From positions 1-15,963 of the forward strand of contig JAUXAJ010000088.1 of the NCBI GenBank assembly GCA_030620005.1: a stretch of DNA of 15,963 bases. Direction: 5' to 3'. Position 1 is the stretch's first letter. Every line of letters starts with the position of its first letter. Origin of the DNA: Promethearchaeota archaeon. Lineage in GTDB: Archaea; Asgardarchaeota; Lokiarchaeia; Sigynarchaeales; SOKP01. Under the pieces are notes generated by a model that worked only from the letters and a program-made list of their open reading frames with translations, did not search any database and had not been told where the DNA came from. The position numbers were made by a program, and so were the translations under genes. Of the stretch, positions 1 to 15,876 are shown in pieces.

Positions 1-1446
1 CAATGCAAGCCTCGGTATAGGCTTTTAACAGAGGTACAAATCAAGAAAATTCATCTAACAAGTTTAGAGATACTTGAAACTATAGGAGTTAAAGTGTCTC
101 ACGATGAAGCGGTGCAACTACTAAGGGATTCTGGATGTCGAGTTAAAGAAAATAATGTAGTTCTTTTTCCAAATTGGCTAGTAGAAGAATGCATTAAAAG
201 TGCCCCTTCACGGATCACGATGTATAATAGAAAAGGGGAAGAAGCAATGCGTTTGGAAGGAGACAATATTTATTTTGGGATGGGGACAGATTTAATTCGC
301 ACTATTGATTTGAAAACAAGTGAATTACGACTGTCATTATTAAATGACGTTGTTAACGCAGCTAGGGTTGCTGATTATTGTAAAAATGTTGATTTCATTG
401 CCTCCTTTGCTTTACCTAGCGATGTTCCTACCAATTTAATGTATATAAATTGTGTCAAGGCCATGATGGAAAATTCAACCAAGCCCATTTTTTTTACTGC
501 AGCAGGGAAAGAAGATCTTTCTTATATCATCGAAATGGCAGAAAATGTTGCGGGAGGAGAAGATGTTCTAAAAAGTAAACCTTTTCTCATCCATTACTCT
601 GAACCAACAGCACCTCTTTCCCACTCGTACGGTGCGATAAATAAAGTCTTTCTTTGTGCTGAAAAAGAGTTTCCTATTTGTTATACTCCGGGAGACTTAC
701 TCGGAGCCAGCACGCCAGTAACGCTTGCTGGAGGCATTGTTCAAGCTAATGCTGAGGCATTGAGTGGTATTGTTTTGCATCAATTAAAGAATAAAGGAGC
801 ACCAATTATCTCTGGTTTTGGCGCAGTCCCCTTAGACATGAGGGCTGCAACATTTTCATATGGCGCCCCAGAACAGCGTCTAACAAACTCGGCATGTGCA
901 GATATTTTCCATTATTATGGCATTCCCATGTGGTCTACAGTTGGTTCTGACTCCCATTGTCTCGATCAACAAGCATCCATGGAACACGCTTTTGGAACAT
1001 TGATGTCTGCCTTCGACGGGGCTAATTTAATCCATGATATAGGGTATTTGGGTCAGGGATTGATTGGAAACCCCGCTTCAATTATAATGTGTAACGAAAT
1101 TATAAGTTATGTAAAACGCATAATCAAGGGATTTGACATTGATAGAGAAATGCTTGGGATTGATGTTATAAGGAAGGTAGGTCCAACTGGAGAGTTTCTT
1201 ACCGAAGAACATACATTGAAACACTTTCGACAAGAGATGTGGCAACCAATCTTCTTGAATCGTAATGATCCAGAATCTTGGATTAAAATGGGAAAAACTC
1301 CCTATGGAGATAAAGTAATCAAAAAAGCTCTTGAAGTTCTTGAAACTCATCAACCAGAACCATTGCCTGAAGATGTCCAACAAAAGCTTAACGAGATCTA
1401 TAATAAGGCAGAAAAAATGTTAGCTGAAATAAAATTCAAAGCATGA
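1..1446 (+). CDS. MttB-superfamily (trimethylamine/glycine betaine-type) corrinoid methyltransferase, 5'-truncated by window edge
   Basis: The frame is open from base 1, and the residues before the GTG at 94 (LTEVQIKKIHLTSLEILE) read as the usual N-terminus of the MttB family. The GTG is therefore not the start and the gene begins just left of the window. The visible 481 residues are close to the family's full length. Family hallmarks include the segment around 950-1080 (SGxDSH-like stretch, GANLIHDIGYL) and a conserved TIM-barrel-like pattern. MttB-type enzymes move a methyl group from a quaternary or tertiary amine to a cobalamin-binding partner protein. There is no in-frame TAG, so this is the non-pyrrolysine type, like the glycine betaine enzyme MtgB. 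The substrate cannot be told from sequence. No corrinoid protein gene is visible in the window. Stop TGA at 1444-1446. Confidence 0.9.
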   Translation, partial: QCKPRYRLLTEVQIKKIHLTSLEILETIGVKVSHDEAVQLLRDSGCRVKENNVVLFPNWLVEECIKSAPSRITMYNRKGEEAMRLEGDNIYFGMGTDLIRTIDLKTSELRLSLLNDVVNAARVADYCKNVDFIASFALPSDVPTNLMYINCVKAMMENSTKPIFFTAAGKEDLSYIIEMAENVAGGEDVLKSKPFLIHYSEPTAPLSHSYGAINKVFLCAEKEFPICYTPGDLLGASTPVTLAGGIVQANAEALSGIVLHQLKNKGAPIISGFGAVPLDMRAATFSYGAPEQRLTNSACADIFHYYGIPMWSTVGSDSHCLDQQASMEHAFGTLMSAFDGANLIHDIGYLGQGLIGNPASIIMCNEIISYVKRIIKGFDIDREMLGIDVIRKVGPTGEFLTEEHTLKHFRQEMWQPIFLNRNDPESWIKMGKTPYGDKVIKKALEVLETHQPEPLPEDVQQKLNEIYNKAEKMLAEIKFKA

Positions 1447-3407: not shown

Positions 3408-4859
3408 TCAAGATTTTTTCTTACTTTCAAAGTACTTTCTTACGACCAATTCTAAAACGTTCATTGGCATGGCTCCGTTATTAAGAACGACATCGTGAAA
3501 ATCTTTAATATTAAATTCATTTCTTAATTCATCTTGAGCCATTTCGCGAAATCGCAATAACTCCATCATTCCAATTTTATACGAGCACGATTGTCCTGGA
3601 CTCACAATATATCGTTCAATTTCTGCGGTAACATCGTATTCAGGCAAGCCAGTATTACTTAATAGGTATTCTATTGCTTTTTCTCTTGACCATTTCTTAA
3701 CATGGATGCCCTTATCGACGACTACACGAACAGCACGAAATAATTCACCTTGTAACCGTCCTAAATTGCTGAAGGGGTCATCTTGATACCCATATTCCCA
3801 CGCTAATTGTTCTGCATAGAGCGCCCACCCTTCAATATAGGAATTAAACAAACCAAACTTGCGAAATAATGGAAGGCCTTATTTTGAGCGAGTGTTAGTT
3901 GAAATGCATGTTCGGGAATTGCCTCGTGATAGGCAAGGGTTCTCATTCCAAATTTGAAAACATCGCTAGGTTTGCGTAGATTAACTTGCATTGCAGCGGG
4001 TCTGACGCCATCCAGTGATGCAGGATTTCCAAATGCTACGGGAGCGTCCTTTTCTTTAAATTCAGGGATCCTTCTCACTTCAATCTTTTCTATGGGTTAA
4101 GAATTAAACATTTTTCCTATATTCTTGTTGATTTCGTCGATGATTTCATGATAATCTTTTATTATTTGAGCACGAGCGTCATCTGTATTTGGATACTGAA
4201 AGCGCTCTTCCTTTGTCAGGTCTATCATGTGCTCTGCTACGCTTTTACTGGTATATCCTTGTTTGTCGAGTATGGTCCGCATTTCAGCTTGAATTCTGGA
4301 AATTTCTTCCAAGCCAATTTCGTAAACTTGTTCTGGAGTGAGATCTTATGTGGTATGAATGCGCAATAAATAAGCGTAATAATCAATATCATTGGGGAAT
4401 GTCCAAGCACCTGTTTCAGTTGGAGCTTTAGGTTTCAAGCTTTCAAAGTAATGAATCATTTTTTCATACGCAGGATAAACGGTATTCTTTAGTTCTTCTT
4501 GAACTTTTTGAAAGAATGCTTCCTTTTGTTTTTCATCAACTTTTTTTACGGATTCCAACTTTTCCACAAATGAAGCATATAAAACATTTTCTTGAATTGG
4601 TTTAGCAATAAAATCTCTCATCTGTGATAGCACCTTTTCCACCACAAATTTTGGAGGAATGATTCCTTCTAAATCGTGCGAGCATTGCACGATTAACGAG
4701 AAGATTAATATTAAATGGAAGACCAAAAATGGATTTATAAGTCCAAACTAAGCCAATTATTGCGCTTAATCCAATCATAATGTATTTAAGAATTTTCCCC
4801 CAAGTATATTGAGAGATCCAAATAAAAACAAGAATCAAGCTGATAACAACAATTCTCAT
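3408..4859 (-). pseudogene. decayed membrane-anchored DUF885 (PF05960) peptidase-like protein
   Basis: Pieces of one DUF885 protein can be read in order. A transmembrane anchor (KILKYIMIGLSAIIGLVW) runs from about 4802 to about 4680. The next recognisable part starts at about 4666 (GIIPPKFVVEKVL), so roughly 150-200 residues are missing and the frame changes. In-frame TAA codons follow at 4346-4348 (after RIHTT, before DLTPEQV) and 4097-4099 (after MFNS). A one-base deletion lies near 3872-3880, after which LPLFRKFGLFNSYIEGW resumes and runs to a normal C-terminus at 3408. The family's HEAxPGH motif is present at 3908-3928 as HEAIPEH, with Gly replaced by Glu. Intact members are about 550-600 aa. 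The start is uncertain: ATG at 4859 or a lost ATG near 4802. I regard it as non-functional. Confidence 0.85.
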
Positions 4860-5307: not shown

Positions 5308-5609
5308 ATGTGGAGGATATATGAAAGACCGTGGGATTTTTTAAGAAAAATTTTGATATAATTACAGAAATTTTTCAACAGTAATACGCACTTATCAAAA
5401 GATTCCTAAAAAAAAGCCTCCACTAAAGGGTCCAGTAGACCCTCCCAAAGAAATAGATCTTCCAAGGAGAGGAGGGAGAGGTGGAGGAAACGGAAGCTTA
5501 GGTGGTGGAAGCAAGTTGGGAAAACAACTTCTTGGAGGTGCGGTGGAAGCCATGGAAAAGTGGGAAAAAAGATAAAAAAAGAATATACGATGAGTATGCA
5601 GATCCTTGA
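5308..5609 (+). pseudogene. frame-broken Gly/Arg/Lys-rich small protein ahead of the GIY-YIG gene
   Basis: The best-supported part is an open frame ending at the TAA 5573-5575. It reads IPKKKPPLKGPVDPPKEI, then RRGGRGGGNG, then LGKQLLGGAVEAMEKWEK, and has no start codon after its upstream TGA at 5354-5356. Coherent extensions lie in other frames. Upstream, from ATG 5308, is MWRIYERPWDFLRK followed, one frame over, by FDIITEIFQQ. Downstream, after an A6 run (5565-5570), is KDKKRIYDEYADP ending at TGA 5607-5609. Joining them needs three single-base shifts, all at A or T runs, giving a basic protein of about 100 aa with an RGG-like motif. It may be a decayed gene, a run of assembly indels, or expressed by slippage. 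Function unknown. Confidence 0.4.
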
Positions 5610-5627
5610 TAAGATATTCGAAGAAAA

Positions 5628-5633
5628 GAGGAG
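5628..5633 (+). promoter_or_regulatory. Shine-Dalgarno of the GIY-YIG gene
   Basis: GAGGAG lies 3 bases before ATG 5637 and 6 bases before ATG 5640. The better spacing favours the second Met as the real start. It is one of the few clear ribosome binding sites in the window. Confidence 0.55.
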
Positions 5634-5636
5634 ACG

Positions 5637-8132
5637 ATGATGAAAAAAAAAGAACCATGTGGATTTATTTATAAAAATACTAATGTAAAAAATCAAAAGA
5701 ACTATATTGGAAAGGTGGAAATAAAGAGATTTAAGGAAAAGAATAAAGAACCGCTCCAAGGTCGGTGGGAAGAGCACTTGGCTGACGCAAAGAGATTAAA
5801 AGATAAAAGAGAAGCAAATCCCGATCAAAAGGTACGAGGAACGCATTTTGAGAATGCTATTGCCAAACATGGTTCAGAAGCGTTCACATTAGAAAAAATT
5901 GATACTGCGTATAGCTTAGAAGAATTAAATCAGAAAGAAACACATTATATTAAAGAATATGATTCAATGAATCCAGATAAAGGCTATAACATGACAGAAG
6001 GTGGGGAGGATGTAACAATGCGTCCAGAAGTTTTAAAAGAAAAGAATGAAAAGATATCGCAATTTTGGCAAGATAATCCCCAAGCAGCAAAAGAATTGGG
6101 TGAAAAGATATCGAAATATTATAAAGATAATCCCCAAGCAGCAAAAGAAAAGGGTGAGAAAGTATCGCAATATTATCAAGATAATCCCCAAGCAACAAAA
6201 GAAATAGGTGAGAAAATATCGCAATATTATAAAAATAATCCTCAGGCATTAAAAGAAAGGAATGCGAATATATCGCAATTTTGGCAAGAGAATCCCCAAG
6301 CAGCAAAAGAAAGACGTGAGAAGCAATCGCAATTTTATAAAAATAATCCCCAAGCATTAAAAGAAAGGGCTGAGAAACAATCGCAATTTTGGCAAGATAA
6401 TCCCCAAGCAACAACAGAAATGGGTGAGAATGTGTCGCAATATTATCAAAATAATCCCCAAGCAGCAAAAGAAAGACGTGAGAAGCAATCGCAATTTTAT
6501 AAAAATAATCCTCAGGCATTAAAAGAAAGGAATGCGAATATATCGCAATATTATAAAGAAAATCCCCAAGCATTAAAAGAAAGGAATGAAAAACTTCGGA
6601 AAGAAATTTCAAATTTAGAAGAATTCATGACAGATATAAAAAATCAAATGCTTCGAAAGGATGTGGCACAAAAGTATGACATATCAGGTTCAACAATTAA
6701 CGCGAGGATAAAAGAAACATTTGGTCCTGCTGGTCCAAAAAATTATAGCGAATTAAAAAGTTATTTAGAAGATAAAGAAATAAAAGATGTTTTAAAAGAT
6801 ATTGAGGAGAAAAACAATCAAGAAAAAAACGCTAATACGAATAATGAAATTCAAAAAGAAGACAGGAACGATATTGAAAGCATTAATGAGGGTTCAACTA
6901 AAGATGGCAAAAAAGATCTTGAGGGAATTAATGATACACAAGATAAAGAAGGGAAGAATAACACTGAGACAAACTCTGTAAATCCTGATAAAGATAAAAA
7001 CGAGGGAAAAATTAATGAATATAAAGATAAGAACAATGATCGGGATACTATCACCGATGAACTGAATCAAAAACCAAATGAAAGATCTAATGGATTACAA
7101 AATGAAATTAAATCCAAAGAATCAATAGAACAAGGCGACCTGGATGAAAAATACAAAAATGAAGAAATCACTACTGATAATAGCAACAAGAATGATCTTG
7201 AGATAAATTCTGAAAGTCCCGATGAAGATAAAAATGAGGGAAAAAATAACGATGGTCTAGATGAAAATAATGATAATAATGTAGAAAATAATCTTGATAA
7301 TATAAATCAAGAATTAAATGAGACAAAAGAGGGTATAAAATCAGGTGAGGTAATAGAACAAGGAGATCTTAACAATTTGGAAAGCGATTTGGAAGAACAA
7401 AATGAAAATAATGATGATAATGAAGATAAACAGCAATTAAATGATTGGGTAGAAGAGCAAGTTGACAATGAAGAAAATGAAGAATCTTCTGAAAGAATTG
7501 ATAACGATTCTAATGATGAAACGACAGATAAGAATCAAGGAGAATCTACAGGTGATACTAAGGAAGAGTCAAAAGAAGAATCTTTTGAACTAAAAATGGA
7601 TGAGAAACAAATAAACGAAAAACCGAATAATAACAGACCAGAAACCATCAATGATAAAAATGTTAATGAAAAGCCAAATGACAACAATAATATAACAATT
7701 TGGGATGATCGAATTGAGGAGAAACCTAAGAATGATGCTTCGGTGACTACATGGGATGGTTCAATCGAAGAAAAACCGCAAAATGATGAAAATTTAACGA
7801 TATTAGATGATCCTCCTGTTGAAACTCCAAATTCCTTTGATCCTGATTATAACGGCGTTAACTCAAGTTCGGGAGAATTTAACGAAGATTTTGACGGATT
7901 AAATGAAGACCATAAAGATAATGGAAAGGATTACGATAATATCAATGAAAAAACTAGTTATAATGGCAAGGACTTTGATGGAATTAATGAAAGCCATGAC
8001 GAGAATGGAAAGGATTACGAAGGCATCAATGAAAGATCTGGTGATACGGGTAAGGATTTTGACGGGATTAACGAGACATCTGAAGATAATGGAAAGGATT
8101 ACGATACTATTAACGAAAATTCTGATTATTGA
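5637..8132 (+). CDS. GIY-YIG endonuclease with ten 18-aa repeats, helix-turn-helix and long acidic tail
   Basis: The N-terminal GIY-YIG nuclease domain (about residues 8-122) shows GFIY (9-12), YIGK (23-26), Arg43, Glu101 and the GYNMTEGGE end. These are the positions expected for catalysis in this family, which cuts DNA with a metal ion. Residues 138-317 are ten tandem 18-aa units (EKxSQxxxxNPQAxKExx), comparable to NUMOD-like DNA-binding repeats of phage-type homing endonucleases. Then comes a helix-turn-helix (about 337-363, RKDVAQKYDISGSTINARI). Residues about 395-831 are Asp/Glu/Asn-rich, surely disordered, and end in six 14-aa units. Homing endonucleases are usually 200-350 aa, so the tail is exceptional. 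The next gene starts 8 bp downstream. It is probably a mobile-element nuclease; the tail's role is unknown. Confidence 0.85.
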   Translation: MMKKKEPCGFIYKNTNVKNQKNYIGKVEIKRFKEKNKEPLQGRWEEHLADAKRLKDKREANPDQKVRGTHFENAIAKHGSEAFTLEKIDTAYSLEELNQKETHYIKEYDSMNPDKGYNMTEGGEDVTMRPEVLKEKNEKISQFWQDNPQAAKELGEKISKYYKDNPQAAKEKGEKVSQYYQDNPQATKEIGEKISQYYKNNPQALKERNANISQFWQENPQAAKERREKQSQFYKNNPQALKERAEKQSQFWQDNPQATTEMGENVSQYYQNNPQAAKERREKQSQFYKNNPQALKERNANISQYYKENPQALKERNEKLRKEISNLEEFMTDIKNQMLRKDVAQKYDISGSTINARIKETFGPAGPKNYSELKSYLEDKEIKDVLKDIEEKNNQEKNANTNNEIQKEDRNDIESINEGSTKDGKKDLEGINDTQDKEGKNNTETNSVNPDKDKNEGKINEYKDKNNDRDTITDELNQKPNERSNGLQNEIKSKESIEQGDLDEKYKNEEITTDNSNKNDLEINSESPDEDKNEGKNNDGLDENNDNNVENNLDNINQELNETKEGIKSGEVIEQGDLNNLESDLEEQNENNDDNEDKQQLNDWVEEQVDNEENEESSERIDNDSNDETTDKNQGESTGDTKEESKEESFELKMDEKQINEKPNNNRPETINDKNVNEKPNDNNNITIWDDRIEEKPKNDASVTTWDGSIEEKPQNDENLTILDDPPVETPNSFDPDYNGVNSSSGEFNEDFDGLNEDHKDNGKDYDNINEKTSYNGKDFDGINESHDENGKDYEGINERSGDTGKDFDGINETSEDNGKDYDTINENSDY
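6048..6587 (+). repeat. ten tandem 54-bp units (18-aa repeat) inside the GIY-YIG gene
   Basis: Ten units with no length change, consensus EK(I/Q)SQ(F/Y)(W/Y)(Q/K)(D/N)NPQAxKE(R/x)x. The NPQA core is invariant. Positions 6-8 alternate between FWQ and YYK/FYK types, and units 5-6 are nearly repeated as 8-9, so the array grew by copying pairs as well as single units. An eleventh, degenerate unit begins at 6588 (EKLRKEI) and leads into the helix-turn-helix. Confidence 0.9.
7878..8129 (+). repeat. six tandem 42-bp units (14-aa repeat) at the GIY-YIG C-terminus
   Basis: Five good units with the core (N/T)GKD(F/Y)(D/E)xINE start at 7920, preceded by one diverged unit (NEDFDGLNEDHKD). They run exactly to the last codon before TGA. 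Each unit carries acidic DxDG/DY(D/E)x clusters. A function such as metal or protein binding is possible but not shown. Confidence 0.85.
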
Positions 8133-8140
8133 GATTTAAA

Positions 8141-8302
8141 ATGGTTATAATAATTGAAGTGTTTTTAATTCTATTTCTATTTAAAAAAGATATTGCTTAT
8201 CTAATACTGGGTTTCAATCAACGGGTTTTTATACAAGAACTTAGAAATAATTACAATATGTTAATTTTGAAATTTATCCGTAAAAGAAAAAAGCTAAAAT
8301 GA
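8141..8302 (+). CDS. 53-aa single-pass membrane protein between nuclease and ATPase genes
   Basis: A short ORF that is easy to miss. It starts at ATG 8141, eight bases after the GIY-YIG stop, and its TGA (8300-8302) overlaps the ATPase start as ATGATGA. The N-terminus is one hydrophobic helix (VIIIEVFLILFLF, residues 2-14) and possibly a second short one (YLILGF). The C-terminus is strongly basic (KFIRKRKKLK). A small membrane subunit with a cytoplasmic basic tail would suit a partner of a DNA-pumping ATPase. That role is inferred only from position and layout. The tight spacing on both sides is good evidence that it is a real gene. Confidence 0.65.
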   Translation: MVIIIEVFLILFLFKKDIAYLILGFNQRVFIQELRNNYNMLILKFIRKRKKLK

Positions 8303-10263
8303 TGACAGAGGACTTTTTTAGAAGCGAAAAATATTATTGGCTGGCACGGATCAATGTCACGCAGGCGCCCGTGCCTTTTGAACCCAAGATCGTGCCAGAT
8401 AGAACTCTATCCGCGTTTCAGGACCCTGAATATATAAGGACATTCTTGTACGATCCATTTGGAACGAATCCAGCTTCAACGTACGGATTAGAGCTGACGA
8501 CAGGAAAAAGACTCAAGTGGAGATTCTATACAAGAGCACATTCAAAATTTGATGCCATTGAATTGGGACACGCTTGGCTTTCGAATCTTAAATATAAATT
8601 CATCGCATTGGATGGAATTATTGAGCCAAAAATGATAAAAAAAGGAAATGACGCAAAAAACCTGAATACATTAGAAGAAATCGTATTTCCCGGGGTATTA
8701 TACAAGAAAAAGATCAATATTATTGAAAGATTCATTAACGCTTTTTATAGCGTTAGAAATTGTAAAGTTAAATTATTCATTTTGTGGAAAGAAAACCCTA
8801 AAAAAATGCCTAAAGCGGAATTTGGGCCCGAAAGGTCAACCTTTCGCATTAGAATATTCGTTAATTATGATACAAGTTCTTTAGACATCATGGAACAAAA
8901 GCGCCTCAAGGGAATCTTGAGATTTTTCTACATGGGTGTTGAAAGTATAAGAGGGGATAGGGCATTCGTGCGACATCCACCTGATGTAACGTTATTAGAT
9001 GTTTTAGGAGGGAATGTATTTGAAGACCATGACACGGGACTGAAATCGTTCAATGATACTAAGGTTAATTTCGACTTTCCCGACAATTTGCCCTTGCCTA
9101 GACTTCCCATTTTGGAACGTGAGAACGTTAGATACATAGATGTTGATGATCAGTTTATAAATGAAGCTATCTCAATTGGCATACACGTATCAAGGGGAGT
9201 GATCTCTCGACAAATTACTTTTGTTCCGATCAACAAGCTCCCTCAAGATTTAGCCATATTTGGCAAATCAGGGAGCGGAAAGACTTATTTTCTTGCTCGA
9301 TTTGTGGAAGAGCTCAGCCGTAAAGCAAAAAATGTCGGTATTTTAGTACTAAATGTTGCCAAGCAATCGCAAGAGATTTATTACGAGAATTTCAAGGTAA
9401 TTAAATTTTCTGATGATAACTTCCACATACCCTATTTTCATAACGAAGAAAAACAAATGCTCAAAAAAAATCTTCAAGAGACTGCCACTTGGATATGCGC
9501 TTCGTTAGGACTGAAAAATGTGTTTGAAAAAATAATCTATCGTTCTGAAATAGGTTTCATTGAATTAGAAGGCAAGTTACCCAATTTTTTCATCAAATTG
9601 CTGGAGGGCGTGGAAAATTACATGAATAAAAATCAATACGGACCAGAGGAGCAAGCAAATCTAATGCAAGTCTTTAGGAACCGCAAGAATGTTTTCAACG
9701 AACATAAGATACAAAAAGTGCTCCAATTATCCAAAAATTTGCCAAAGTGGGTGATGAATTGGATGAATGGCGAAAAAATCTTTCTCGATTTGTCAATGTG
9801 CAGTAAATTCGTCAAGACAGTAATTATAAACGCCATTTTCCAACTTTTAAGAACAATTACAAGAGACTTCGAAGCAGAGGAGTTAAAACAACTCATTGTC
9901 ATTGACGAGGCACACGCAATCTTGGAAAAACCCATAACGACAAATAGCGACGACGCCGATTTCATAACGAAAGAACAAATGGCCAAGATATTTTCTGAAT
10001 TGTTAAAGGAATACCGTAGCAGAGGGATAGGATTCGTTATCGCGGATCAATCTCCCAAAAGTTTATTCGACGATGTCGTGACTCAGCCAAGCATAAAAGT
10101 TGTTTTTAGAAGCGATTACCCGAACAACTTGCTTTTTTCCGAAGACCCAAAAGAACGACAAATGCTGACGCAATTAGAAAACAGGCTTGCCTTGGTCATT
10201 AACGGGGCGACAGGAGAGAAATATATTATCAAGACACTAGATTATAAGAGAGATAAATCTTAA
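8299..10263 (+). CDS. HerA/VirB4-like (DUF87-type) P-loop ATPase
   Basis: A 654-aa protein. Walker A is GKSGSGKT at residues 322-329. Walker B is LIVIDEAH, with Asp536-Glu537. A sensor-like ADQSPKS has Gln584, and a conserved Arg region follows (VVFRSDYPNN). The IxIGxxVxxGV stretch just before Walker A and the RSRGIGFVIADQ segment fit the HerA-FtsK superfamily, close to archaeal HerA and VirB4/TraC-type conjugation ATPases, which form hexamers that move DNA. The N-terminal 300 residues, longer than HerA's barrel domain, are not recognised and may dock to a membrane or nuclease partner. The ATG at 8299 overlaps the previous stop, implying coupled translation; ATG 8302 is equally possible. Base use is richer in G+C than the genes on either side. 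Confidence 0.85.
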   Translation: MMTEDFFRSEKYYWLARINVTQAPVPFEPKIVPDRTLSAFQDPEYIRTFLYDPFGTNPASTYGLELTTGKRLKWRFYTRAHSKFDAIELGHAWLSNLKYKFIALDGIIEPKMIKKGNDAKNLNTLEEIVFPGVLYKKKINIIERFINAFYSVRNCKVKLFILWKENPKKMPKAEFGPERSTFRIRIFVNYDTSSLDIMEQKRLKGILRFFYMGVESIRGDRAFVRHPPDVTLLDVLGGNVFEDHDTGLKSFNDTKVNFDFPDNLPLPRLPILERENVRYIDVDDQFINEAISIGIHVSRGVISRQITFVPINKLPQDLAIFGKSGSGKTYFLARFVEELSRKAKNVGILVLNVAKQSQEIYYENFKVIKFSDDNFHIPYFHNEEKQMLKKNLQETATWICASLGLKNVFEKIIYRSEIGFIELEGKLPNFFIKLLEGVENYMNKNQYGPEEQANLMQVFRNRKNVFNEHKIQKVLQLSKNLPKWVMNWMNGEKIFLDLSMCSKFVKTVIINAIFQLLRTITRDFEAEELKQLIVIDEAHAILEKPITTNSDDADFITKEQMAKIFSELLKEYRSRGIGFVIADQSPKSLFDDVVTQPSIKVVFRSDYPNNLLFSEDPKERQMLTQLENRLALVINGATGEKYIIKTLDYKRDKS

Positions 10264-10487: not shown

Positions 10488-12386
10488 ATGATTATAATGC
10501 CATTTGTTAGGTATAAAGGAAAAAAATACGAAATAGAAGGTAAATATTTAGATTTACAATCTCAAGATATTTATGATATAACTCTCATTGAAGGATTAGA
10601 AAATCTTATTCATCTAAAAGCCTTAAATCTTAGAAATAATCAAATTACTGAAATTAAGGGGTTAAGTAAGCTTAAAAAATTAGAAAGACTATATCTTAAC
10701 AGGAATCAAATTGTAGAAATCAAGGGCTTGGATGCGCTTCAAAATTTACAAATATTATACCTTGATAGGAATCAAATTACAGAAATCAAGGGCTTGGATG
10801 CGCTTCATAATTTACAATCGTTATATCTTGACGGGAATCAAATAAAAGACCCTGAAGAAGAATATTTGATTCAAAGGGCTTCTAATGCTCAAGAATTTGT
10901 TGAATATTGCAAATCCAAAAAAATTAGGCAAAATATTCCCTTTATAAATTTCAATAAAAAATTATCATTTAACGAAAATATTGATTATTTCAGAAGAAAT
11001 CTAATGGAGATAACTGATAATTCATTTTTTGTGAATATAGGAACACATAAAGAATCCAAGAAAATTAAGGGGGAGCAAAATGCTATTTTTTTAATGAACA
11101 AGCCAAATGAGATTAATCTATCAAATAAAGACTTTAACAATTATAAAGATATAATAATCCATCTCGTTCAATTACATTCCTTAAAAGGGATTAAATTCAT
11201 TAAAAAAAATAAATTAGAACATTTTAATTTTGTAATAAGTCATTTTTGGGATGATTATGAGATTGAAAAAAATAATGTATTACTTTACAACGACGAATAT
11301 GGATCACGAGTGAACAATAAAATTAAAGAAATGCTAGATCTTTCAGTGAATACAAAAGTTAAAATGTTTAATGCAAACAAACCTGATATCATAATATTTC
11401 CTGAAAATTCAATTCCAAAAATATTGATAAATTATCTTAAAGAGTTTTCAAAAACTAATGAACTCCTCATTATAGGTGGTATTGAACACGAAAGAGGAAA
11501 ATCAAAATTCACCAACAAGGCAATCATTATTGATAAGGGAATAATGAGCTATCAGGTGAAACAAACTCCAGTATGGATATGGGATAAAGAAAATAGAACA
11601 TATATGAAAGAGAATATTAAATGTGAACATTTACCAGAAATAAACATATTTAACACTTCATTTGGAAGAATAGCTATTTTTATCTGTAAGGATTTCTTGC
11701 GATTAAGTGAAATCATACCATACTGGGTTTCAAGAAATCAAATTGATTTTGTAATCATTCCATCCTTGACAACAAAAGTATTACCTTTTCAAGCGAGATT
11801 ATTAAGTGTACTTAATTATCCTCAATGCATAAATACCAAATTCATTTTTAATAATATAGGAGAATACGGAGGATCAGAGTTATTCTCTGTTGAGGATAAT
11901 TGGAGAATAGAAGAGAACTATAGACTTAATAAACATGATAATGTGGGTGAAACCATCGTTACTAGAAAGATTGAACGCATAAAATCAAAATACTTAGATC
12001 TTGTTAGCAAGGAAATGAAAAATTGCAAAGAAGATCCTGAAAAATTTAAAAAACTTCAAGTCTATAAAAAAAAAATTGAATCAGACCGCATACCTTATAC
12101 ATTCACTAAGAATTTATCACTTGAGTGGCATAATGGAACTCCTCATATTACGGAAACTATCATTATTAAGGCTTCAGAATTATTTGGGGAAAAATTGGAG
12201 GGTTATTGTATAAGATGTAAAAAAAAGATTTTTTTCAATCGTTATAAGCCCTATTGTTATGATGACTGGCAAGATTGGGTACGATGGAATAATCCATTTT
12301 ATACAGAAAGATATTGTCATAAATGTGGAGAACCTTATGGAGCAACAAAAAGTAAACCTTTTTGTAATAATTGTTATTGGAGTTAG
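10488..12386 (+). CDS. LRR - nitrilase-fold hydrolase - double zinc ribbon fusion protein
   Basis: 632 aa with three recognisable parts. Residues about 17-125 are SDS22-like leucine-rich repeats, five units of 22 residues (for example LYLDRNQITEIKGLDAL). Residues about 165-490 are a carbon-nitrogen hydrolase (nitrilase superfamily) domain with the Glu-Lys-Cys triad visible as Glu306 (IIIFPENS), Lys358 (VKQTPVW) and Cys400 (IFICKDF). The C-terminus (about 570-632) holds two zinc ribbons. The first is C-x2-C paired with a C-x2-D, so one Cys is replaced by Asp; the second has four Cys. The family hydrolyses amide or nitrile C-N bonds; the substrate here is unknown. The second ATG (10497) gives the more natural start MPFVRYKGKKY. 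The gene faces the next membrane-protein gene and stands alone in its operon. Confidence 0.85.
   Translation: MIIMPFVRYKGKKYEIEGKYLDLQSQDIYDITLIEGLENLIHLKALNLRNNQITEIKGLSKLKKLERLYLNRNQIVEIKGLDALQNLQILYLDRNQITEIKGLDALHNLQSLYLDGNQIKDPEEEYLIQRASNAQEFVEYCKSKKIRQNIPFINFNKKLSFNENIDYFRRNLMEITDNSFFVNIGTHKESKKIKGEQNAIFLMNKPNEINLSNKDFNNYKDIIIHLVQLHSLKGIKFIKKNKLEHFNFVISHFWDDYEIEKNNVLLYNDEYGSRVNNKIKEMLDLSVNTKVKMFNANKPDIIIFPENSIPKILINYLKEFSKTNELLIIGGIEHERGKSKFTNKAIIIDKGIMSYQVKQTPVWIWDKENRTYMKENIKCEHLPEINIFNTSFGRIAIFICKDFLRLSEIIPYWVSRNQIDFVIIPSLTTKVLPFQARLLSVLNYPQCINTKFIFNNIGEYGGSELFSVEDNWRIEENYRLNKHDNVGETIVTRKIERIKSKYLDLVSKEMKNCKEDPEKFKKLQVYKKKIESDRIPYTFTKNLSLEWHNGTPHITETIIIKASELFGEKLEGYCIRCKKKIFFNRYKPYCYDDWQDWVRWNNPFYTERYCHKCGEPYGATKSKPFCNNCYWS
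10716..10807 (+). repeat. near-identical 66-bp tandem duplication inside the LRR coding region
   Basis: A 26-bp block (GAAATCAAGGGCTTGG...) at 10716-10741 recurs exactly at 10782-10807, one 66-bp (22-residue) LRR unit later. Neighbouring bases are also nearly the same, so this LRR unit was duplicated recently compared with the others. Confidence 0.75.
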
Positions 12387-14508: not shown

Positions 14509-15864
14509 TCACGGTTTTTTTGACGGTTTTATCTTTTGAACGATTTCTTGAAAATATCTCGCGTTTTCGGCCTTTTTATAGAGTTCTACTAGTTTAACTA
14601 CATCTTCTAAGATTTTAGATTTAAATTGCATCAATGATTTCGAACGTTTTTCCATGACGGCAATTTTATTTCTTGTAGTAAAGACGTGTGCAAAATTATT
14701 TCTCTCGTCTGATAATTCGGATATTATCGAAAATAGTTGGCTTCCTTTAATCCCGTGTTCGCCTGATTTAAGCGACTGTCTTAAAGTTCCAAAACACGCA
14801 GACGCGGATTTTCTGCCTTCTGAATCAAAAGGATCCGAGTCCATGACTTCTTCGCACATCCAAGAGATGAAACTTTCTCGAATTAATTGTAAGGCCGTAG
14901 AAAAATCCATTTTTCGAGTCATTAACAACTCTGCTAAATTAAGTTGCCTGTTCCAGACTTTTAAAGTTTTTGAACCGGATCCATAGATTTTTTCTTTAAT
15001 TAATTGAATTTCTGGAATGATCCCGTTAATAAAGGAATCCTTGTAGAAATTATCGTACTCTTTAAACACTTCTAATGGAACTCGTTTAAAGGGATCGGGT
15101 TTTAAGAGAAACTCAATTTTTTCTAATAACTCTTCACTAACGATTCCGTTATTAACGTACAACATTACTTTTTGCAAGGTTAAAATGAACCCTTTTAAGG
15201 CCTTCACGTTTCCTTTTATCCATTCAAAGGCAGATACATCAAGATTTTTAACGATTAGTTTAATTTGAGAAATTTCTTGCTGTAGCATTATTAATTGATC
15301 CAACTCTATAAAATTTGAATCCTTATCTTTGCCCTGAAATATGGCGTAATAAATTTTCTCTAATTTGTTCGAAGAAATGTTTTCAAAATAGTAAATAAAA
15401 GAAAATAGGAGGCTTTGGAACAATCGAAATCCGTGAGTAATGTCAACGATTACTGAACTGTTTTCAATCTTGTTAAACGCTTGGACGAGCAAGTTAAGAA
15501 ACGACCAGATTTCGTTTTTATTCTCGATGTTCGGAAATTCAATTCCAATAATTTCCGAAGTGTCCGAAAAATTTTCCTTAAATAAATCTTTTATGGCCTT
15601 TCTACTTCTTCCTAAGCCTTCTTCGGCATAATCAGATTCCCAGCCAATTTCGAAACTTTTAACTCCTTCGGGAGTGTTTGGATATAGGACTAAAATTCTA
15701 TTTGGAACTTGGCTTTTTTCTTCTTTTAGATACGTTAATAGAGCGTGACTGGCATACCAATGGTTTAACCTGAATACTTCTCGCTGATTTTCATTAAAAA
15801 TGTAGTTCGTATCGTCATAAAACCTTGAGTTCCCCAATACAGAAACAAAAGTGATATTTTCCAT
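14509..15864 (-). CDS. Csx1-like CRISPR-associated CARF-HEPN protein (TM1812/TIGR02221-type)
   Basis: 451 aa from ATG 15864. The N-terminal half is a CARF domain: strand and loop VSVLGNSRFYDDTNY (residues 7-21) and the family's VDITHGFR (140-147), the region that holds a cyclic oligoadenylate ring. The C-terminal half is helical and contains the HEPN ribonuclease motif R-x4-H as RNNFAH (Arg388, His393). In type III CRISPR systems such proteins are turned on by cyclic oligoadenylate made by Cas10 and then degrade RNA. No cas10 is in the window, so the rest would lie to the right. A GTG at 15873 is in frame, but it lies inside the Shine-Dalgarno of the ATG, which decides the start. Confidence 0.85.
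   Translation of the reverse strand: MENITFVSVLGNSRFYDDTNYIFNENQREVFRLNHWYASHALLTYLKEEKSQVPNRILVLYPNTPEGVKSFEIGWESDYAEEGLGRSRKAIKDLFKENFSDTSEIIGIEFPNIENKNEIWSFLNLLVQAFNKIENSSVIVDITHGFRLFQSLLFSFIYYFENISSNKLEKIYYAIFQGKDKDSNFIELDQLIMLQQEISQIKLIVKNLDVSAFEWIKGNVKALKGFILTLQKVMLYVNNGIVSEELLEKIEFLLKPDPFKRVPLEVFKEYDNFYKDSFINGIIPEIQLIKEKIYGSGSKTLKVWNRQLNLAELLMTRKMDFSTALQLIRESFISWMCEEVMDSDPFDSEGRKSASACFGTLRQSLKSGEHGIKGSQLFSIISELSDERNNFAHVFTTRNKIAVMEKRSKSLMQFKSKILEDVVKLVELYKKAENARYFQEIVQKIKPSKKP
14515..14521 (+). terminator. T-run, possible terminator for the small membrane-gene operon
   Basis: T7 lies 33 bases after the 54-aa ORF stop and just inside the 3' end of the convergent csx1-like gene. A poly-T tract alone can end transcription in archaea. 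No hairpin is evident. Confidence 0.25.
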
Positions 15865-15869
15865 GATAT

Positions 15870-15876
15870 TCACCTT
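15870..15876 (-). promoter_or_regulatory. Shine-Dalgarno that sets the csx1-like start
   Basis: AAGGTGA on the minus strand, five bases before ATG 15864. It matches the 16S anti-SD core well and overlaps the alternative GTG start at 15871-15873. Confidence 0.6.

Follow-up and report, generated by a model that had tools for sequence, protein, structure and literature searches.

A GIY-YIG nuclease encoded beside a HerA/FtsK-class ATPase in an Asgard archaeon: a candidate cut-and-pump locus

The window analysed here, a stretch of 15,963 nucleotides of Promethearchaeota archaeon DNA, encodes a GIY-YIG nuclease and a HerA/FtsK-class ATPase. Both enzymes have conserved catalytic motifs, the nuclease family has a conserved tail motif, and membrane segments are fused to three relatives of the ATPase. 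From the comparison of family members we strongly infer that the two enzymes are recurrently paired. We propose tentatively, at somewhat less than an even chance, that the locus is a two-component cut-and-pump machine whose most likely job would be the cutting or degradation of invading DNA.

According to the listing of open reading frames (ORFs), the nuclease gene (5637–8132, 831 aa), a small ORF (8141–8302, 53 aa) and the ATPase gene (8299–10263, 654 aa) follow each other on the forward strand. Eight bases separate the nuclease from the small ORF, which overlaps the ATPase gene as ATGATGA; the coordinates thus bear out the original prediction of three tightly packed ORFs. The nuclease (NCBIfam and PHROG matches, relatives) and the ATPase (Pfam DUF87, a family of listed proteins) are surely genes, because both have families and conserved catalytic residues. 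Promoter-like and terminator-like sites between 5000 and 10600 were no commoner than in shuffled sequences, and the window contains neither a tRNA detectable by ARAGORN nor an Rfam family at gathering score.

The ATPase and its relatives

Pfam DUF87, the central domain of HerA, matches the ATPase with 29.9 bits (cut-off 23.2). A search of 5.8 billion proteins yielded a family of 101 listed proteins with at least 30% identity, including the window's own (P0001); an organism is named for 11 of them, and in every case it is an Asgard archaeon (Promethearchaeota, Thorarchaeota, Lokiarchaeota, and Odinarchaeota). Across the 77 sequences of the ATPase alignment (A5; alignment A1 has 28), G322, G325, G327, K328, and T329 of the Walker A motif GKSGSGKT (9262–9285, forward strand) and D536 and E537 of the Walker B motif LIVIDE (9892–9909, forward strand) are invariant. 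As hallmarks of the HerA/FtsK clade, PMC10853773 gives, besides Walker A and B, an arginine finger before core strand 4 and a glutamine at the end of this strand. By sequence position, R573 (76 of 77 rows) is the candidate arginine finger and Q584 (72 of 77) the candidate sensor (10015–10050, forward strand); together with the DUF87 match above cut-off, these positions place the protein in the HerA/FtsK superfamily. The predicted identity as a HerA-like ATPase is therefore supported by both DUF87 and the Walker residues.

Membership in HerA proper is a different matter: three NCBIfam HerA models reach only 28.3, 27.3, and 18.3 bits against cut-offs of 800, 800, and 970, and the model for CedD gives 23.1 bits (2.6e-5) against 600. 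Since these equivalog matches fall so far under their cut-offs, the ATPase is treated as a separate HerA-class family. The PADLOC model mad8 and one HerA model match all of 28 ATPases, weakly and in a manner generic to HerA-class ATPases. The best solved profile matches are the HerA chains 4d2i (1.2e-4) and 9x1l (2.2e-3, named “DNA helicase”), and in each of the 40 solved chains retrieved (E up to 10) the best stretch begins at profile position 279 or later. These stretches leave uncovered an N-terminal domain of about 300 residues (8299–9198, forward strand), which is conserved in the family (mean major-residue frequency 0.56 vs. 0.75 in the ATPase part), resembles no known fold by sequence and matches no Pfam family.

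Four of the 101 ATPases pass a hydropathy scan. One of them (P0046) has a weak internal stretch and was not counted; the other three, all distant (P0091, P0096, and P0097), carry membrane segments fused ahead of the ATPase, upstream of the point where the window protein starts. P0096 and P0097 have about five N-terminal hydrophobic segments, and these two and P0098, also distant, share a C-terminal extension of about 150 aa that appears helical by eye. Two other family members, P0057 and P0083, have the same contig size of 504,212 bases; they are probably paralogues on one and the same contig.

The fused membrane segments raise the possibility of a machine for DNA exchange, in which a membrane-anchored pump in the style of CedB, CedD, VirB4, or FtsK would move DNA after a site-specific cut by the GIY-YIG enzyme, replacing a relaxase, had started the transfer. 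CedD, described as combining a HerA/VirB4-like ATPase with a transmembrane domain and an N-terminal domain (PMC11868833, in part), resembles the window ATPase in its extra N-terminal domain and in the transmembrane segments present in some relatives, and its NCBIfam model matches weakly. According to the relevant portion of PMC9905601, archaea have no apparent relaxases of the bacterial type, and a divergent channel could be hidden among the several window ORFs that have no Pfam assignment above cut-off. Against this stand the CedD score itself, far short of its cut-off, and a Pfam scan of ten window proteins that recognised neither a channel nor a pilin gene. Genes resembling CedA or CedA1 were not recognised either, the ATPase has by sequence no N-terminal domain like that of VirB4, and the pair includes a nuclease, all in contrast to the CedD/CedB and VirB4-like pumps. 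Alignment by hhalign to the ATPases of two Sulfolobus conjugative plasmids, pHVE14 and pKEF9, reveals local similarity of the P-loop and core only, and the best solved matches are HerA, with VirB4 absent from the 40 chains; VirB4 membership was rejected on these grounds. We regard DNA exchange as rather unlikely, and a role against invading DNA as more likely. A bolder version is quite unlikely in our estimate: an Asgard-wide membrane-anchored transfer machine, in which the GIY-YIG enzyme with an interchangeable array would substitute for the relaxase and its tail would deliver the cut DNA to the pump.

The nuclease, its array and its tail

The catalytic domain of the nuclease comprises residues 9–118 (5661–5990, forward strand). 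A profile built from 28 family members finds the I-TevI structures 1mk0 and 1ln0, and the protein also matches PHROG homing endonucleases and, with 29.4 bits (7.5e-7) and thus under the cut-off of 56.05, NCBIfam TIGR01453. Pfam PF01541 matches 16 of the 28 members, but not the window nuclease. The five catalytic residues of the GIY-YIG superfamily (Y, Y, R, E, and N) are all present: Y12 and Y23 are kept in all 26 rows that have a residue there, R43 and E101 in 27 of 27 and N118 in 28 of 28. They align with the active-site residues of I-TevI. H47, which aligns near an active-site residue of that enzyme, is retained in just 16 of 27 rows. The profile match and the conserved residues sustain the predicted identity as a GIY-YIG nuclease. 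At least 30 relatives were found in the protein database, a number that is not a census because 7998 candidates sharing most words were scored, restricted to 0.55–1.75 times the query length. Over the whole protein they are 24–33% identical to the window nuclease, and array and tail vary strongly.

The catalytic domain is followed by an array of ten 18-aa NPQA units (6033–6595, forward strand), detected by motif scan and by TRF (6035–6584, period 54, 10.2 copies), which confirms the repeat array noted in the original prediction. An HTH-like unit with approximate boundaries follows (6609–6761, forward strand), recognised by motif and by Pfam matches in relatives (FokI_D3 in 11 of 28 members, HTH_11 in 4 of 28). 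By motif, it occurs in zero to three copies among the relatives and is missing from 10 of 30. I-TevI consists of a catalytic domain and a DNA-binding array, and the window nuclease has a similar layout besides the five catalytic positions that it shares with this type of endonuclease. It differs by its recurrent pump partner and by a long acidic tail of low complexity (6837–8129, forward strand) with 14-aa repeats that contain D[YF]xxIN near 7890–8125.

The tail motif D[YF]xxI[DN] is found in 25 of 28 family members with 59 copies, whereas shuffled tails contain 0.28 copies on average; the pattern counted, D[YF]x[GSATFDNHEK]I[DN], was picked after the family had been seen. Three proteins (P0124, P0130, and P0131) had been excluded from this count and from alignment A6; all three lack the motif even in a looser scan, and their addition brings the fraction to 25 of 31. 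Among 40 viral loci with related GIY-YIG domains (L004–L043), the motif, scanned as D[YF] and I[DN] separated by one or two residues, occurs in none of the frames read, several of which are short or cut.

Pairing of nuclease and ATPase

Linkage of the two families was assessed by an exact match in the size of the source contigs and agreement of the listed sources, so that location on the same contig is deduced from these two properties. Three nuclease/ATPase pairs were recovered in this way, on contigs of 396,182 (P0105/P0086), 7,789 (P0122/P0013), and 5,711 bases (P0119/P0024), with agreeing sources in each case. When the contig sizes of the nucleases were jittered by up to 7%, the mean number of matches was 0.19; 16 of 20,000 trials gave three or more, and contigs above 100 kb never matched. 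The contig of 5,711 bases is the sole one that sets a tight bound, as nuclease and ATPase must be less than about 1.9 kb apart; its nuclease represents three contigs. For 27 of the 30 nuclease matches no size match exists, and linkage may therefore not be universal; each cluster shows only its longest contig.

The two proteins also diverge in parallel. In the six comparisons possible among the four loci, window included, identities of the ATPase (first 400 residues) and the GIY domain (first 130) were 49/44, 54/56, 54/56, 56/51, 56/50, and 89/78%, so that the catalytic domain of the nuclease and the ATPase diverge about equally fast. A quick tree of 85 ATPases (the window's and those of the 101 longer than 560 aa, which excludes P0086 as too short), calculated with long-branch warnings, assigns the window protein and P0024 to the same fork and P0013 to a different one; both forks have a support of 89, short of the 95 at which the tool awards a star. 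Contigs of equal size and parallel divergence suggest that the pairing is probably inherited rather than a local accident. Of the predicted three-gene module, the HerA/GIY-YIG pair thus appears to recur on three further contigs, judged by size and source; an ATPase family never found beside the nuclease would have spoken against the module, and as far as the comparison reaches this is not the case. The small membrane protein, for which no homologue was found, could not be established as its third part.

This apparent co-inheritance across about 50% divergence of the ATPase bears on a simpler explanation, namely that a free-standing nuclease of the homing type happened to land next to an unrelated ATPase. 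Its catalytic domain and HTH units do resemble homing endonucleases, and related GIY-YIG domains are encoded in the 40 viral loci. The acidic motif tail, however, extends through the family and was unseen in the frames read from these loci. We consider a chance landing very unlikely. The view of the enzyme as a generic homing endonuclease was likewise dropped, as the viral loci lack the motif in the frames read and are unmatched by the family ATPases: a tblastn search with 14 of the latter, at an E-value limit of 1e-3, retrieved the plasmid loci L001–L003 alone.

The small ORF between the two genes (8141–8302, forward strand) encodes one hydrophobic segment and a basic C-terminus and is a putative gene. 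It is 53 aa long if read from ATG and 57 aa from a TTG at 8129, which overlaps the stop of the nuclease gene as TTGA. We lean slightly towards the view that it might be a detached membrane anchor of the ATPase. That the ORF is spurious and the module consists of two genes only is a serious alternative, just short of an even chance. Its GC content is 0.211 (neighbours 0.321 and 0.375), its codon score (-0.025) is uninformative, being intermediate between the scores of the two other frames (-0.050 and 0.020), other ORFs of 50–60 aa occur between genes in the AT-rich window, and no candidate homologue was retrieved from the protein database. Its likeness to the fused membrane segments of P0091, P0096, and P0097 is no better than expected by chance, as 252, 228, and 453 of 500 shuffled sequences score as high. 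For a real gene speak the TTGA and ATGATGA couplings at its ends, the corresponding position of the membrane segments fused to three ATPase relatives, and the rarity of a same-strand open frame of at least 50 codons in dinucleotide shuffles of the gap (18 of 5000).

A sequencing error that split an originally fused protein was also considered. Frameshifts do exist in the window, since the DUF885 gene upstream (3408–4726, reverse strand) is fragmented into four pieces with Pfam matches, which jointly cover profile positions 129–529 and reflect either a pseudogene or frameshifts of the assembly. Among ATPases in which the start motif was found, only four (P0098, P0091, P0096, and P0097) have more than 32 residues ahead of it; a fused original is therefore not needed, and the explanation was discarded. 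Just upstream of the nuclease gene, a glycine-rich frame without visible start (5354–5577, forward strand) might be the remnant of a fourth gene; the stretch 5354–5636 has 40% GC.

Genomic context and possible functions

Two genes within 6 kb downstream of the locus recall defence systems. The first (10488–12386, forward strand) encodes an LRR and nitrilase-like protein that is similar to DRT-associated nitrilases (PADLOC model for an RT-associated nitrilase, 8e-16) and has a weak zinc-ribbon match; its LRR repeats are 80% alike at the DNA level. The second (14509–15873, reverse strand) encodes a Csx1/Csm6-like CARF-HEPN protein (PADLOC, 3e-29), for which sequence comparison at E up to 0.01 yielded no solved relative and beside which TRF listed no repeat array. 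At the other end of the window (94–1446, forward strand) lies a homologue of the MttB-family trimethylamine methyltransferases; its 387 bits fall short of the 525 required by TIGR02369.

Three pattern-based scans of limited reach recovered no relative of the ATPase from viral contigs, and its plasmid and phage matches are only local and HerA-like (22–38% identity; 13 plasmid records and one phage record). In the viral and plasmid collections scanned, the ATPase family is thus no hallmark of either type of element; the tie to viruses or plasmids that had been raised is not established, and an origin from them was rejected. The best plasmid match, on the Exiguobacterium plasmid NZ_CP081879.1 (L002, 22.5% identity), is followed after four bases by an HNH endonuclease gene; a gene of the PD-(D/E)XK family is located two genes upstream. 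Two scans of genome contigs, one of which matched 589 stretches, confirmed no relative, a result that is not read as absence because NCBI-sourced Asgard proteins of this family exist.

A chromosomal family would fit the lack of viral relatives in the three scans and the ATPase members on contigs of up to 1.28 Mb, and the pair could accordingly serve chromosome maintenance, with an FtsK-like pump, for which the membrane segments of three members would be suitable, and a nuclease for end processing or the removal of trapped or bridged DNA. The two members that share the contig size of 504,212 bases, however, indicate that copies multiply, and the nuclease array and tail vary strongly, although the catalytic domain keeps pace with the ATPase. 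Chromosome maintenance therefore seems improbable to us.

Returning to a cut-and-pump machine directed against invading DNA, the HerA/FtsK-class ATPase, presumably a hexamer, would pull double-stranded DNA, and the GIY-YIG endonuclease, whose variable array is predicted to bind DNA, would cut what is pumped. The acidic D[YF]xxI[DN] tail probably docks the nuclease to a partner, most simply the pump. The 53-aa protein may anchor the window ATPase, a task for which some distant relatives have membrane segments in cis. The invading DNA would thereby be cut or degraded, as in other HerA–nuclease pairs: HerA with another nuclease forms a two-component anti-phage defence system (PMC11291478, in excerpt), and the archaeal HerA-NurA cuts both strands of double-stranded DNA (as stated in part of PMC12977600). 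These known systems and the CARF-HEPN and LRR-nitrilase neighbours lead us to favour defence by analogy, with a confidence that stays below even. The defence-like neighbours pertain to one window only, and DNA transfer would account no less well for the membrane segments fused to three relatives.

Like HerA-DUF4297 and HerA-NurA, the locus pairs a HerA-class ATPase genetically with a nuclease, and the solved structure that matches best is a HerA chain (4d2i). The locus belongs to neither system, as the partner is a GIY-YIG enzyme with array and acidic motif tail; moreover, the window ATPase is far below the HerA model cut-offs, and 3 of the 101 family members have fused membrane segments. DndH and the HerA/FtsK capture systems also combine a pump ATPase with an endonuclease and are proposed to act against invaders (PMC10853773, in part), but nuclease class and ATPase family differ from those of DndH systems, and none of the window proteins scanned matched Dnd proteins above chance. 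In agreement with the original prediction, no description of a HerA/GIY-YIG pair, in Asgard archaea or elsewhere, was found in the open-licence papers searched, and a term search of PMC8813620, PMC11291487, and PMC4158269 returned no mention of GIY-YIG.

The combination of a HerA-class pump with a nuclease recurs in DNA repair and in defence against viruses, and a conserved GIY-YIG pairing in Asgard archaea would add to it a nuclease class, a new and conserved docking-like motif and possibly a connection with the membrane. If the locus served DNA transfer instead, its GIY-YIG enzyme could be the strand-initiating nuclease that is still missing from archaeal DNA exchange, which would bear on gene trading among the Asgard archaea.
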